Shown here in pieces: positions 5,848 to 9,678 of a DNA stretch of 64,000 nucleotides (positions are counted from its first letter, which is position 1; every line of letters starts with the position of its first letter). A program made the position numbers and the translations under genes. The notes under the pieces are model-generated. The model had not been told where the DNA came from, made no database searches, and worked only from the letters and a program-made list of their open reading frames with translations. The stretch covers positions 1 to 64,000 of the forward strand of contig CAMHMZ010000002.1 in assembly GCA_946186375.1 (NCBI GenBank). The letters run 5' to 3'. The stretch comes from an uncultured Clostridia bacterium. GTDB lineage: Bacteria; Bacillota; Clostridia; Oscillospirales; Oscillospiraceae.

Positions 5848-6849
5848 TTATTCTTTCTCGATATCGGACCGGTGCTTTTTGCCGATAGGATTGGCCATGG
5901 CCGCCTCATGAAGGGCCGCGTTATCCAGATGCGTATAGATCTGCGTCGTATTCAGATTGCTGTGCCCGAGCACCTCCTGCAGGGCACGCGTATCCACGCC
6001 GTTTTTCAGCATGAGCGTCGCCGCGGTATGGCGCAATTTGTGCGGAGAGTATCTTGTAGCGTCCAATCCGGCCATTTTCAGCTTCTTTTCGACCATTTTC
6101 TGTACGCCTCGAACACTGATCCGCCGTTGATCCCGGCTGATAAAGAGGGCATTTTTGTCTTCCGGCACGATCTTTTCCTCGTCCCGCACCATCAGATAGT
6201 CGTCGATCGCTTCGCGGCAGCCATCGCCGAAGTATACCACGCGCTCTTTGTTGCCTTTACCGAGCACGCGCAGATGATCCTCATAGATGTCCGTTGTATT
6301 CAAGGATACAAGCTCAGAAACGCGCAGCCCGCAGGACATGAACAGCATCAGCATGCAGTAGTCCCGCAGCGCATAGGGACCCTCGCAGGCATTGAGCAGA
6401 CGCTCGCATTCGGTTTCTTCCAGATATTTGGGAAGCGACGCCTGTCGCTTGGGCATGTCAAGTTCCTGGCAAATATTGTGCTCAAGTAAATGACGTTTTA
6501 CTGTGAGGTAATTGAAAAAGGATTTTACCGAGGACGTTCGGCGGCAGCGGCTGGCAGCGGACAGGGCCTGGCTGGAATTCTGCATTTCCGGTGAGAAAGA
6601 CTGATAGCGATAGAGTTCTTCAATTCTCGTCGCTTTGATGAAGTCCAGGTCGACATCCGTGATGTCTATTTCATTGAAAGGCGTTTTCGGATCGACCAGA
6701 TGACGCCGACGTTTCAAATAACGAAACAGGATCTTTAAATCCAAATAATACGCAGCGACGGTACGGTCGGAATGTCCGCGCACCGTGGAATGATATTCGA
6801 GAAACTCCATCAGAATGTCGGGAATATCGTTGATCTGGTCTAAATTCAT
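5848..6849 (-). CDS. Tyrosine recombinase, XerC/XerD type
   Basis: Xer recombinases resolve chromosome dimers by cutting and rejoining at dif. The 333-residue protein has an N-terminal SAM-like core-binding domain (about 1-140) and the catalytic domain with Arg in CGLRVSEL, HKLRHTAAT (His-x-x-Arg) and HSNLNTTQIYTH with the nucleophilic Tyr. It is about 30 residues longer than typical XerC or XerD at the N-terminus. The ATG is preceded by AAGGAG. No integrase-linked cargo or attachment repeats are visible, so a housekeeping Xer is more likely than a mobile-element integrase. Whether it is XerC or XerD cannot be told by eye. Confidence 0.85.
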   Translation of the reverse strand: MNLDQINDIPDILMEFLEYHSTVRGHSDRTVAAYYLDLKILFRYLKRRRHLVDPKTPFNEIDITDVDLDFIKATRIEELYRYQSFSPEMQNSSQALSAASRCRRTSSVKSFFNYLTVKRHLLEHNICQELDMPKRQASLPKYLEETECERLLNACEGPYALRDYCMLMLFMSCGLRVSELVSLNTTDIYEDHLRVLGKGNKERVVYFGDGCREAIDDYLMVRDEEKIVPEDKNALFISRDQRRISVRGVQKMVEKKLKMAGLDATRYSPHKLRHTAATLMLKNGVDTRALQEVLGHSNLNTTQIYTHLDNAALHEAAMANPIGKKHRSDIEKE

Positions 6850-6956: not shown

Positions 6957-6987
6957 TTTTGATTATAAACGGATGGCGCTTTCTTTG

Positions 6988-8673
6988 TCAATAGTCTTCG
7001 TCGTCTAAAAGCTCGTCCTGTTCGTCTTTACCCTTAAGCATACCGGACAGGTCGAACAGCGGCGCCTGCGTAACACGGATCGTATTCAGGATCGTAGCGA
7101 GCGCGGCGGCCATATCGACGAAGATGGCAAACCACAGCGTGCAGTGCCCTGTCATACTGAGGAAAATCAGCAGTGCCTTGACGGCAACGGCAAAAATGGC
7201 GTTCTCGGAATTGATCTGTCCCACTCTTCTGCAGATACCCGGAACCGCCGGAAAGCTCTGCAGCTCCTCAGGCATGATCATCGCATCGGCGTATTTGGAT
7301 TTCTGGCTGACGCGGATATCCACGCCAGCGGCGCTGTGCGATTCAATGCCGCTGGCATAGACGTACAGCACGGAATCCTTATGTCCCTGACTGAGATTTT
7401 CGATCAGACGGAGCTTTTTGTCGATATCGCATTCGGCGTACACCTCGTCGGCGTCGAGCGCGAGACCGAGACGTTCGCTTTCATCCTTCCCCTCTTCGGA
7501 AAGCAGGATGCATTTCTGTATGCCGCTCTCCTTCAATGCCGGGATAAGCTTGGAGGATTCTTCGTGGATCTTGTCGGAGATCTCAGCCTTGCCGATATAC
7601 TTATCGGATACCATCAGATAGTAGACAAGATTTTTGTTGTCCGCCTCGTAAGGGACCGCCTCTCCTCGGGCCGCATACAGCTCCCTCGTTCCGAGCGTGA
7701 CCGGCGCGCCGCCGATCTTCAGATCCACGCCGCAGCCGGGGATCTCTTCAAAATCGCTGACAAGCTCCAGCTTGTATTCCTGGTCAAACGCGTCCGTGAT
7801 CGCCTTGGCGAAGGGCTGTTCGGAATAGTAAGCGGCGTGGGCAATGAAGTCCATAAAGGTCTTCTCGTCCAGGATATCGGATTTGATCCCGATCAGCTTG
7901 GGGCTTTCGTCGGAAAACACGCCATTTTTATCAAAAATCACGGTTTTGGCCGCACCGACCTTCTCCATGGTTTTCGCGCTGTTGAAAAGCGTGCCATACT
8001 GGGCGCTGAAGCCGATACCCATGATCCCGCTGAGCGGGAGCGCCGAGACGACGGAGATCGGCGTCGCGACAAGAATGATGATCAGCGCACGATGAATGGC
8101 GGTCGTAAAACGCATGCTCGTCGCGATCGGAAGGATGATGGCAAAGGCAAAAGCAAAGAGAACGACAAAGCGCAGGATGCCGGTGGCGGCAGCTGCGATC
8201 TCCTCGCCGTTTTTGGTTTCGCCGGCGCCCTCCCCTTCCATCAGCACGGCAGCGCGCTCCGCGACGCTCTCGCTCTGATATTGCAGAAGCTCCCGCGCCG
8301 TTTTCCTGGTGCGCTGCACCGCATAAGCGATCAGAGCAAGACCGATCTTATACAGCATGATCATTGCGGCGCCTTCGACCGAATAGCCGATCACGAAGGC
8401 CAGAAAGGTCACGAACAGGATCAGGACCGGAGCTGCAAAATACCGGCCGTTCTCGACCGCATCGATCGTCTCCAGCACGACGTCATATCCGGCGATAGCC
8501 GCTGAAAGGATGAGCAGGATCAGTGTGACAACAGCGGGGATCTTTGCGAGCAGCGCGACAGCGAACAGCAGCGCGGCAATGATGAGCCGCACAACGATGA
8601 TACTGTCGAGATTGCTGTGCGTTGCCGGTATAAGAGGCTTCTGAGGCTTTTCGGCCTCGGAATGCTTACCCAA
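6988..8673 (-). CDS. Degenerate P1B-type ATPase-like membrane protein (probable pseudoenzyme)
   Basis: The order of segments follows heavy-metal P-type ATPases, but the active-site motifs are changed. The phosphorylation motif DKTGT is DKNGV (about residue 248). The transmembrane CPC is ATP in VATPISV. The SEHP motif of the nucleotide domain is SEQP, TGDN is SEEG, and GDGxND is replaced by ASGIESH. The A domain with TGES, normally over 100 residues, is absent. Flanking family positions remain recognisable (FEEIPGCGV, ADEVYAE, a final ATLWMAVFxD-like membrane pair). The 561-codon frame is intact, so it is not simply a decaying gene. TTG 8673 is preferred because AGGAGG lies 8 nt upstream; GTG 8682 would overlap that site. 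It follows fba by 36 nt. Transport activity is unlikely; a regulatory or scaffolding role is conjecture. Confidence 0.75.
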   Translation of the reverse strand: MGKHSEAEKPQKPLIPATHSNLDSIIVVRLIIAALLFAVALLAKIPAVVTLILLILSAAIAGYDVVLETIDAVENGRYFAAPVLILFVTFLAFVIGYSVEGAAMIMLYKIGLALIAYAVQRTRKTARELLQYQSESVAERAAVLMEGEGAGETKNGEEIAAAATGILRFVVLFAFAFAIILPIATSMRFTTAIHRALIIILVATPISVVSALPLSGIMGIGFSAQYGTLFNSAKTMEKVGAAKTVIFDKNGVFSDESPKLIGIKSDILDEKTFMDFIAHAAYYSEQPFAKAITDAFDQEYKLELVSDFEEIPGCGVDLKIGGAPVTLGTRELYAARGEAVPYEADNKNLVYYLMVSDKYIGKAEISDKIHEESSKLIPALKESGIQKCILLSEEGKDESERLGLALDADEVYAECDIDKKLRLIENLSQGHKDSVLYVYASGIESHSAAGVDIRVSQKSKYADAMIMPEELQSFPAVPGICRRVGQINSENAIFAVAVKALLIFLSMTGHCTLWFAIFVDMAAALATILNTIRVTQAPLFDLSGMLKGKDEQDELLDDEDY

Positions 8674-8709
8674 TTCTGCCACCTCCTATTTCTGGTGCTC
8701 TTTTATTTC

Positions 8710-9678
8710 TCAGGCTTTCCCGTCGGAACCGAGCACATGGACGATCTTATGGGCGACCATGTCCTTCACGGCCTGGCGTGCCGGCTTGAGGTACTGGCGC
8801 GGGTCGAAGTGATCGGGATGCTCGGCGAAATACTTGCGGATGTTGGCGGTCATGGCCAGACGGATATCGGAGTCGATGTTGATCTTGCAGACCGCGAGCT
8901 TGGCAGCCTCACGCAGCTGATCCTCGGGGATACCGATGGCGTCGGGCATGTTGCCGCCGTACTGGTTGACCATCTTCACGAATTCCTGAGGCACGGAGGA
9001 AGAGCCGTGCAGGACGATCGGGAAGCCGGGCAGACGCTTGATGCACTCCTTGAGCACGTCGAAACGGAGCGGAGGCGGAACCAGGATGCCTTCCTCGTTG
9101 CGGGTGCACTGAGAGGCCTTGAACTTGTAGGCGCCGTGAGAGGTGCCGATGGCGATGGCCAGAGAGTCGCAGCCGGTGCGGGAAACGAATTCCTCGACCT
9201 CTTCCGGACGGGTGTAGCTCTCATGACCGTGCTCAACCGCCACTTCGTCCTCGACGCCCGCGAGGGTGCCGAGCTCAGCCTCGACGACAACGCCGTGGTC
9301 GTGCGCATACTCGACGACCTGGCGGGTCAGGGCGATGTTCTCCTCGAAGGACTTGGAGGAAGCGTCGATCATGACAGAGGTGAAGCCGCCGTCGATGCAG
9401 TTCTTGCAGAGCTCAAAGGTGTCACCGTGGTCCAGGTGCAGCGCGATGGGGATCTCGGGGTTTTCGATGATCGCGGCTTCCACAAGTTTGACGAGATAGG
9501 TATGGTTGGCATAGGCGCGGGCACCCTTGGACACCTGCAGGATGACAGGGCTCTTCAGCTCGCCAGCCGCTTCCGTGATGCCCTGCACGATCTCCATGTT
9601 ATTCACGTTAAACGCGCCGATGGCATAGCCGCCGTCGTACGCCTTCGCAAACATCTCTTTCGTTGTTACCAGTGCCAT
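8710..9678 (-). CDS. fba: Class II fructose-bisphosphate aldolase
   Basis: The enzyme interconverts fructose 1,6-bisphosphate with dihydroxyacetone phosphate and glyceraldehyde 3-phosphate in the cytoplasm. The 322-residue protein has the zinc and substrate motifs HLDHGD near residue 81, EAELGTLAGVED, GTSHGAYK, LHGSSSVP and INIDSD. The start MALVTTKEMF is set by GGAG a few bases upstream; the frame extends further 5' but without a site. It is divergent from a phosphofructokinase gene, so consecutive glycolytic steps share one control region. A sigma-A promoter and a palindromic site lie between them. Confidence 0.95.
   Translation of the reverse strand: MALVTTKEMFAKAYDGGYAIGAFNVNNMEIVQGITEAAGELKSPVILQVSKGARAYANHTYLVKLVEAAIIENPEIPIALHLDHGDTFELCKNCIDGGFTSVMIDASSKSFEENIALTRQVVEYAHDHGVVVEAELGTLAGVEDEVAVEHGHESYTRPEEVEEFVSRTGCDSLAIAIGTSHGAYKFKASQCTRNEEGILVPPPLRFDVLKECIKRLPGFPIVLHGSSSVPQEFVKMVNQYGGNMPDAIGIPEDQLREAAKLAVCKINIDSDIRLAMTANIRKYFAEHPDHFDPRQYLKPARQAVKDMVAHKIVHVLGSDGKA

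Follow-up and report, generated by a model that had tools for sequence, protein, structure and literature searches.

The pseudo-pump gene and its link to fba

The window analyzed here, a stretch of 64,000 nucleotides from an uncultured Clostridia bacterium, comes from a genome of 3.29 Mb in 133 contigs that is 83.9% complete. Its minus strand carries fba, which encodes a class II fructose-bisphosphate aldolase (positions 8710 to 9678; PF01116, 3.3e-102; TIGR01859 above the cut-off), followed by a pseudo-P1B-ATPase gene (6988 to 8673, minus strand) that begins with a TTG and stays open over 561 codons. A prior sequence-only reading of this locus had described the intact frame and its pairing with fba at 36 nt, and our data confirmed both. 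The 36-nt spacer (8674 to 8709, minus strand) holds an AGGAGG just 5' of the TTG, an alternative GTG start at 8682 overlaps this AGGAGG, and no terminator-like site is listed for the spacer. At the 3' end of the pseudo-pump gene lies a promoter-like site, TTGACA-18-TATAAT, matching 12 of 12 positions (6962 to 6991, minus strand) and facing the open reading frame at 5848 to 6849, which suggests that the fba transcription unit ends there.

The protein matched TIGR01525 at 3.6e-48 and PDB entry 7qbz at 8.3e-25, and a family profile of 19 rows (the window protein and its first 18 relatives, 25 to 48% identical to it) matched Shigella ZntA (4umv) at 1.2e-73. Homology to TIGR01525 and the PDB entries spans the membrane, P, and N segments and, as judged from these alignments, is far above chance; the pseudo-pump is descended from Zn/Cd-type P1B pumps. 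An AlphaFold prediction based on two rows only, the window protein and L028, a relative from an uncultured Oscillospiraceae bin, had a pLDDT of 36.1 and a pTM of 0.27.

Adjacency to fba is widely shared. Among 88 actuator-less rows gathered irrespective of fba, the gene immediately 5' on the shared strand is fba in 87, including L014, which shows the last 30 fba residues at a contig edge; the single exception is L028, whose contig ends before the fba position. Canonical pumps gathered likewise (L002, L030 to L058) have fba upstream in 0 of 30 cases, seven of them with less than 600 bp of flank. In 75 of 95 rows, a start with Shine-Dalgarno support could be located, its median distance from the fba stop being 38 nt. 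Of the actuator-less relatives with a head that were found later, 9 of 12 are adjacent to fba and three (L177, L181, and L182) are not, so actuator loss does not require fba; L177 and L182 also fall outside the main clade in a tree of 61 rows. The remaining counts (FD 10 of 11, FC 3 of 3, OD 0 of 7, and those of the later canonical rows) do not test the link, as rows added later were sorted by it, FA, FD, and FC being linked by choice and OD and the later canonical rows not.

Seen from the side of the aldolase, fba is present in 97 of 110 genomes surveyed, and 60 fba loci were fetched, a set that is not unbiased because G003 and G032 were picked for a P-ATPase already seen on the contig. A P1B-like gene lies within 300 nt downstream on the same strand in five of the 60 (L211, L228, L229, L244, and L261), and in the other 55 the 500 nt that follow fba contain none in the fba orientation, with less than 1.4 kb of downstream sequence at L209, L215, L234, and L240. 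Evidently, fba does not need the pseudo-pump. The linkage on which the sequence-only reading had built falls short of universality, yet it is very strong in the rows gathered irrespective of fba. By eye, the neighboring fba copies fall into identity groups of about 90 to 98% and 73 to 80% within one genus, a split that the pseudo-pump does not show; fba replacement or transfer is possible.

Lost motifs and retained residues

P-type ATPases are enzymes familiar from textbooks. We counted their motifs in 97 actuator-less rows, including the window (L122, L124, and L128 among them being cut or broken), and in 42 canonical rows, a class assigned from the rows' own motifs, with DKTGT, HP, and CPC intact in 42 of 42 and GDGxND in 40 of 42. 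The actuator domain with its TGES motif is absent from the window protein, just as the sequence-only reading had stated: where a domain of about 118 residues would stand there is only a junction (residues 128 to 160; 8194 to 8292, minus strand), and the region measures 15 to 36 residues (median, 32) in the 97 rows versus a median of 118 in the canonical ones.

The altered motifs that had been read from the window, DKNGV, SEQP, SEEG (residues 392 to 395), and ASGIESH, are present as written, and the losses are common to the 97 rows. At DKNGV (residues 248 to 252; 7918 to 7932, minus strand), both threonines of DKTGT are gone while the aspartate and lysine are kept; DKTGT is intact in 0 of 97 rows, the first position being Asp in 91 and Glu in 6, and the lysine persists in 87. 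SEQP (residues 284 to 287; 7813 to 7824, minus strand) has Gln for the ATP-binding His of the HP motif, which is kept in 3 of 97 rows. For two motifs the loss stood and the exact site did not: CPC aligns with T204-P205-I206 (8056 to 8064, minus strand), one residue away from the ATP that had been proposed, and GDGINDx aligns with YASGIES at residues 439 to 445, one residue away from ASGIESH (residues 440 to 446; 7336 to 7356, minus strand). CPC is intact in 10 of the 97 rows, retains one Cys in 3, and has lost both in 84. The claim that every catalytic motif had disappeared thus holds for the most part, the exceptions being the Asp and Lys of DKTGT and the P-domain lysine K420 (7414 to 7416, minus strand), which is Lys in 89 of 95 rows. 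As D248, K249, and K420 are kept, some residual phosphate chemistry would still be possible.

In the membrane part, E100 (8374 to 8376, minus strand) aligns with the ZntA release residue E202 and is Glu in 87 and Asp in 9 of 97 rows; K499 (7177 to 7179, minus strand) aligns with ZntA K693 and is Lys in 94 of 94; and D520 (7114 to 7116, minus strand) aligns with ZntA D714 and is Asp in 92 and Glu in 2 of 95. The complete E/D100-K499-D/E520 set occurs in 93 of 94 rows, while 9 of 97 retain the inlet residue equivalent to ZntA E214. In ZntA, E202 is described as stimulating zinc release and a K693-D714 bridge as preventing reflux (PMC6305203). Nine of the ten rows that retain CPC also have the complete set, and the retention of CPC in these actuator-less rows would mean that, in that branch, the catalytic cycle was lost before the metal ligands. 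The dead group also shares residues that pumps lack: Q286 (76 of 97), H279 (86 of 97), H446 (78 of 95), and D452 (78 of 95), as well as residues at the further positions C415 and R454.

Compared with the P1B-2 Zn/Cd/Pb-ATPases (ZntA and CadA; PDB 4umv and 7qbz), the pseudo-pump has the same order of membrane and P/N segments and shares the positions of E202, K693, D714, the DK pair, and the P-domain Lys, but it lacks the actuator, CPC, the HP histidine, GDGxND, and the DKTGT threonines, and its TIGR01525 score of 164.8 bits lies below the curated cut-off of 346.25. The protein is P1B by descent but lacks the actuator, DKTGT, CPC, HP, and GDGxND features that define the family by function, and its status as a pseudoenzyme is well supported.

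Relatives, selection, and the series from intact to dead pumps

The pseudo-pump is present in at least 72 of 101 genomes of its own genus, and 71 of the 72 matches have no internal stop, two of the 71 being cut by contig ends. The remaining one, L128 (G703:C30), has an in-frame TGA and may be a broken copy or an assembly error. In a sample of 400 genomes of the family, at least 42 gave a one-piece match to the N-terminal profile, that is, one without an actuator domain; six of these are headless and three are actuator-less but away from fba. Outside family f1, this N-terminal profile, A2 (E ≤ 1e-25), gave no one-piece match in 335 genomes of the order or in 331 of the class, both samples including some family genomes. 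A2 derives solely from family members, weak matches would escape it, and L211, which lies inside the family, is not among the one-piece matches listed; one search for relatives was set at 1e-50, so that divergent members were missed there.

Over 17 pairs, pooled NG86 dN/dS was 0.108 for the first four helices, 0.110 for M3-M4, 0.065 for the head, and 0.077 for M5-M6, the last value including L124, which is cut by a contig end and whose M5-M6 values are not meaningful; for fba, it was 0.028 over 17 pairs. Among the pairs listed, all those above 60% identity with a finite dS had a dN/dS of at most 0.25. These rates show purifying selection on the pseudo-pump, tightest in its dead head, and the gate residues of the membrane part are under selection as well. 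Relaxed selection, which the sequence-only reading had named as the mark of a decaying gene, was not observed in the pooled values (0.065 to 0.110 by region), and with these rates and mostly stop-free frames we rejected decay.

The relatives form a series of three arrangements: fba followed by an arsR-type gene and an intact pump (three loci), fba followed by a dead pump that retains the actuator (10 loci), and fba followed by a dead pump without it (98 loci, that is, the 97 plus L211, which has 36 residues at the actuator site). In all three intact loci (L186, L196, and L229), an ArsR-type gene lies between fba and the pump, called by HTH_5 in two (3.3e-13 and 6.7e-15) and by eye in L229. These loci resemble the ArsR/SmtB-P1B metal-resistance operons, unlike the dead forms, in which ArsR is absent and the gene directly follows fba. 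In the 10 dead rows with an actuator (fba seen in nine, L193 being cut at a contig edge), the phosphorylated Asp is replaced by Asn in four and by Ser in four and is kept in two, and CPC and GDGxND are intact in none. These patterns of aspartate and actuator show two dead routes, one in which the actuator was lost and the Asp mostly kept and another in which the actuator was kept and the Asp mostly lost. The fba-linked forms occur in 14 genus codes: the actuator-less ones in g1, g20, g28, g41, g79, g95, and g102, the dead ones with an actuator in g4, g51, g70, and g94, and the intact ones in g24, g32, and g54. Canonical homologs in close relatives had been held to speak against a repurposed pseudoenzyme; such homologs are indeed present beside fba, though in other genera (L186, L196, and L229), and look like the starting state of the series more than like counterevidence.

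Two trees were built, one of 49 rows and one of 61. The latter held 21 of 97 FA, 9 of 11 FD (including L211), 3 of 3 FC, 4 of 6 HL, and 6 of 7 OD rows together with 18 canonical ones and was rooted on L004, a canonical paralog of 847 codons. L211, L018, L261, and L004 have long branches, the attachment of L211 to L004 came with a warning, and numerous forks are open. On this tree, no fewer than three changes account for the actuator-less fba-linked rows, and the absence of the actuator over the whole set of rows takes five (six once L211 is included). The hypothesis that the actuator-less fba-linked forms arose just once was rejected (p-AU, 0.00023; 2.3e-05 with L211 added), the clade tests having been made after the tree was seen. 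By these topologies, the actuator domain was lost more than once. L186 branches close to the root of the clade containing the actuator-less fba-linked rows, where forks are open, a position that fits descent in place. L196 and L229 lie outside that clade, and the fba-arsR-pump arrangement may therefore have arisen or spread more than once.

Other degenerate P1B proteins occur in the family. Six headless remnants (L168 to L173, from G042, G190, G040, G073, G149, and G106) have 370 to 425 codons, with 41 to 45 residues at the place of the N/P head and 16 to 22 at the actuator site; in 6 of 6, the membrane helices keep ACPC and the E/K/D gate residues. Those read have a His-rich N terminus, no fba was seen upstream of the six, and an ArsR-type gene lies just upstream of L169; the four placed in the 61-row tree form one clade (100/100). 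The window's own genome has a second degenerate P1B of 701 codons, L003 (L132:9859-11961; G000:C12:28668-29960), with FSKTGT, an actuator that has LVGA for TGES, and no GDGxND; in the 49-row tree, L134, from a same-genus genome, groups with it. Further degenerate lineages away from fba are L198 and L203 (genus g84), L177 (G108), and L181 and L182 (genus g72). The window's bacterial family seems prone to producing dead P1B proteins.

Possible functions of the pseudo-pump

The shared losses, the adjacency to fba, and the purifying dN/dS support the proposal of the sequence-only reading that a pseudoenzyme has been repurposed here and is paired with fba; the function in central carbon metabolism or by moonlighting that it also suggested is putative. 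Our preferred reading, to which we give an even chance of being right, is that of a repurposed, nonpumping pseudo-P1B-ATPase that serves as a membrane adaptor or sensor made together with the class II aldolase. In this scenario, the gene would be cotranscribed with fba, and the membrane part, in which the release Glu and the Lys/Asp gate pair of ZntA persist, would form a locked or ligand-sensing helix bundle. Constraint is tightest in the dead head, which speaks for a role in binding, and its pseudo P and N domains would bind a partner or ligand without ATP hydrolysis. The most likely partner would be the aldolase made together with it, and the pseudo-pump would then act toward it as a membrane adaptor or as a metal or metabolite sensor, tuning or placing the enzyme. 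A fuller version, possible rather than probable, casts this former zinc pump as a membrane regulator of central carbon metabolism whose ATPase is dead and whose ion gate is kept. It would sense or pass zinc, or use the retained Asp/Lys pocket of its pseudo P domain to read a phosphorylated metabolite, and would thereby determine how active the class II aldolase is, how it is loaded with metal, or where it sits at the membrane; the dead fba-linked forms would have been reached repeatedly in one family, by actuator deletion or by mutation of the phosphorylated Asp.

There are partial precedents for such proteins. KdpB is a P-type subunit that works with partner proteins in KdpFABC, but it keeps its catalytic motifs and hydrolyzes ATP. 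The iRhoms are dead membrane enzymes retained for roles in binding or trafficking; the analogy is one of kind only, as their fold and the organisms concerned are unrelated. Among the titles and abstract openings listed by searches of the open-licence literature, we recognized no report of a selected, catalytically dead branch of P-type ATPases and none tying a dead P-type ATPase to an aldolase. The gene series offers a natural stepwise record of a pump turning into something else, and it ties metal homeostasis to glycolysis in gut bacteria in a way that is concrete and open to testing.

The alternative that survives best, although we consider it unlikely, is that the linkage serves expression alone, the protein having an unrelated membrane job and using the promoter of a strong fba unit. 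This predicts direct adjacency equally well, and adjacency can persist for expression alone; the gene that follows carries a promoter-like site of its own, the intact fba-side pumps bring their own ArsR so that the position may simply be inherited, and three actuator-less relatives sit away from fba. However, 55 of the 60 fba loci have no such gene and yet dead forms hold the place in 11 genus codes, and ArsR has been lost and the gap closed to the median of 38 nt.

Rather more doubtful is a passive or gated metal or proton pathway, in which the membrane part leaks or senses Zn2+ or another ion, for example to supply the zinc enzyme aldolase. The near-universal set of E202, K693, and D714 equivalents (93 of 94 rows), the roles of these residues in ZntA (PMC6305203), and the ten rows with CPC, nine of them with the full set, are all in its favor, as is the class of the adjoining enzyme: Salmonella needs zinc uptake for the activity of its class II aldolase (PMC6221366). 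On the other hand, the metal-binding CPC is not intact in 87 of 97 rows, the E214-position inlet residue is kept in nine, the strongest constraint falls on the head rather than the pore, and the K-D pair can be purely structural.

A working but very divergent P-type ATPase is highly improbable. The Asp (91 of 97, otherwise Glu), its neighboring Lys (87 of 97), and the P-domain Lys (89 of 95) are what one would expect of it, but the GDGxND site is broken, DKTGT is intact in none of the 97 rows, and the HP His survives in three; moreover, a protein without an actuator domain has no known route of dephosphorylation. A separate actuator protein supplying the missing domain was considered and rejected: no stand-alone actuator domain was found in the 83.9%-complete genome, where all four PF00122 matches lie in P-ATPase-sized frames of 632 to 927 codons. 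A decaying pseudogene, to which fast evolution (25 to 48% identity among the first 18 relatives) and the one in-frame TGA (G703, L128) might point, can be dismissed given that 71 of 72 same-genus matches are stop-free (two of the 71 cut by contig ends), that dN/dS is 0.065 to 0.110, and that the dead group has residues of its own; from these alignments and rates, both the active-ATPase and the decay readings are disfavored.

Two cysteines also set the dead group apart. C415 (7429 to 7431) is Cys in 68 of 95 actuator-less versus 3 of 42 canonical rows, and C511 (7141 to 7143) is Cys in 61 of 94 versus 0 of 41; a new metal or redox site is possible.
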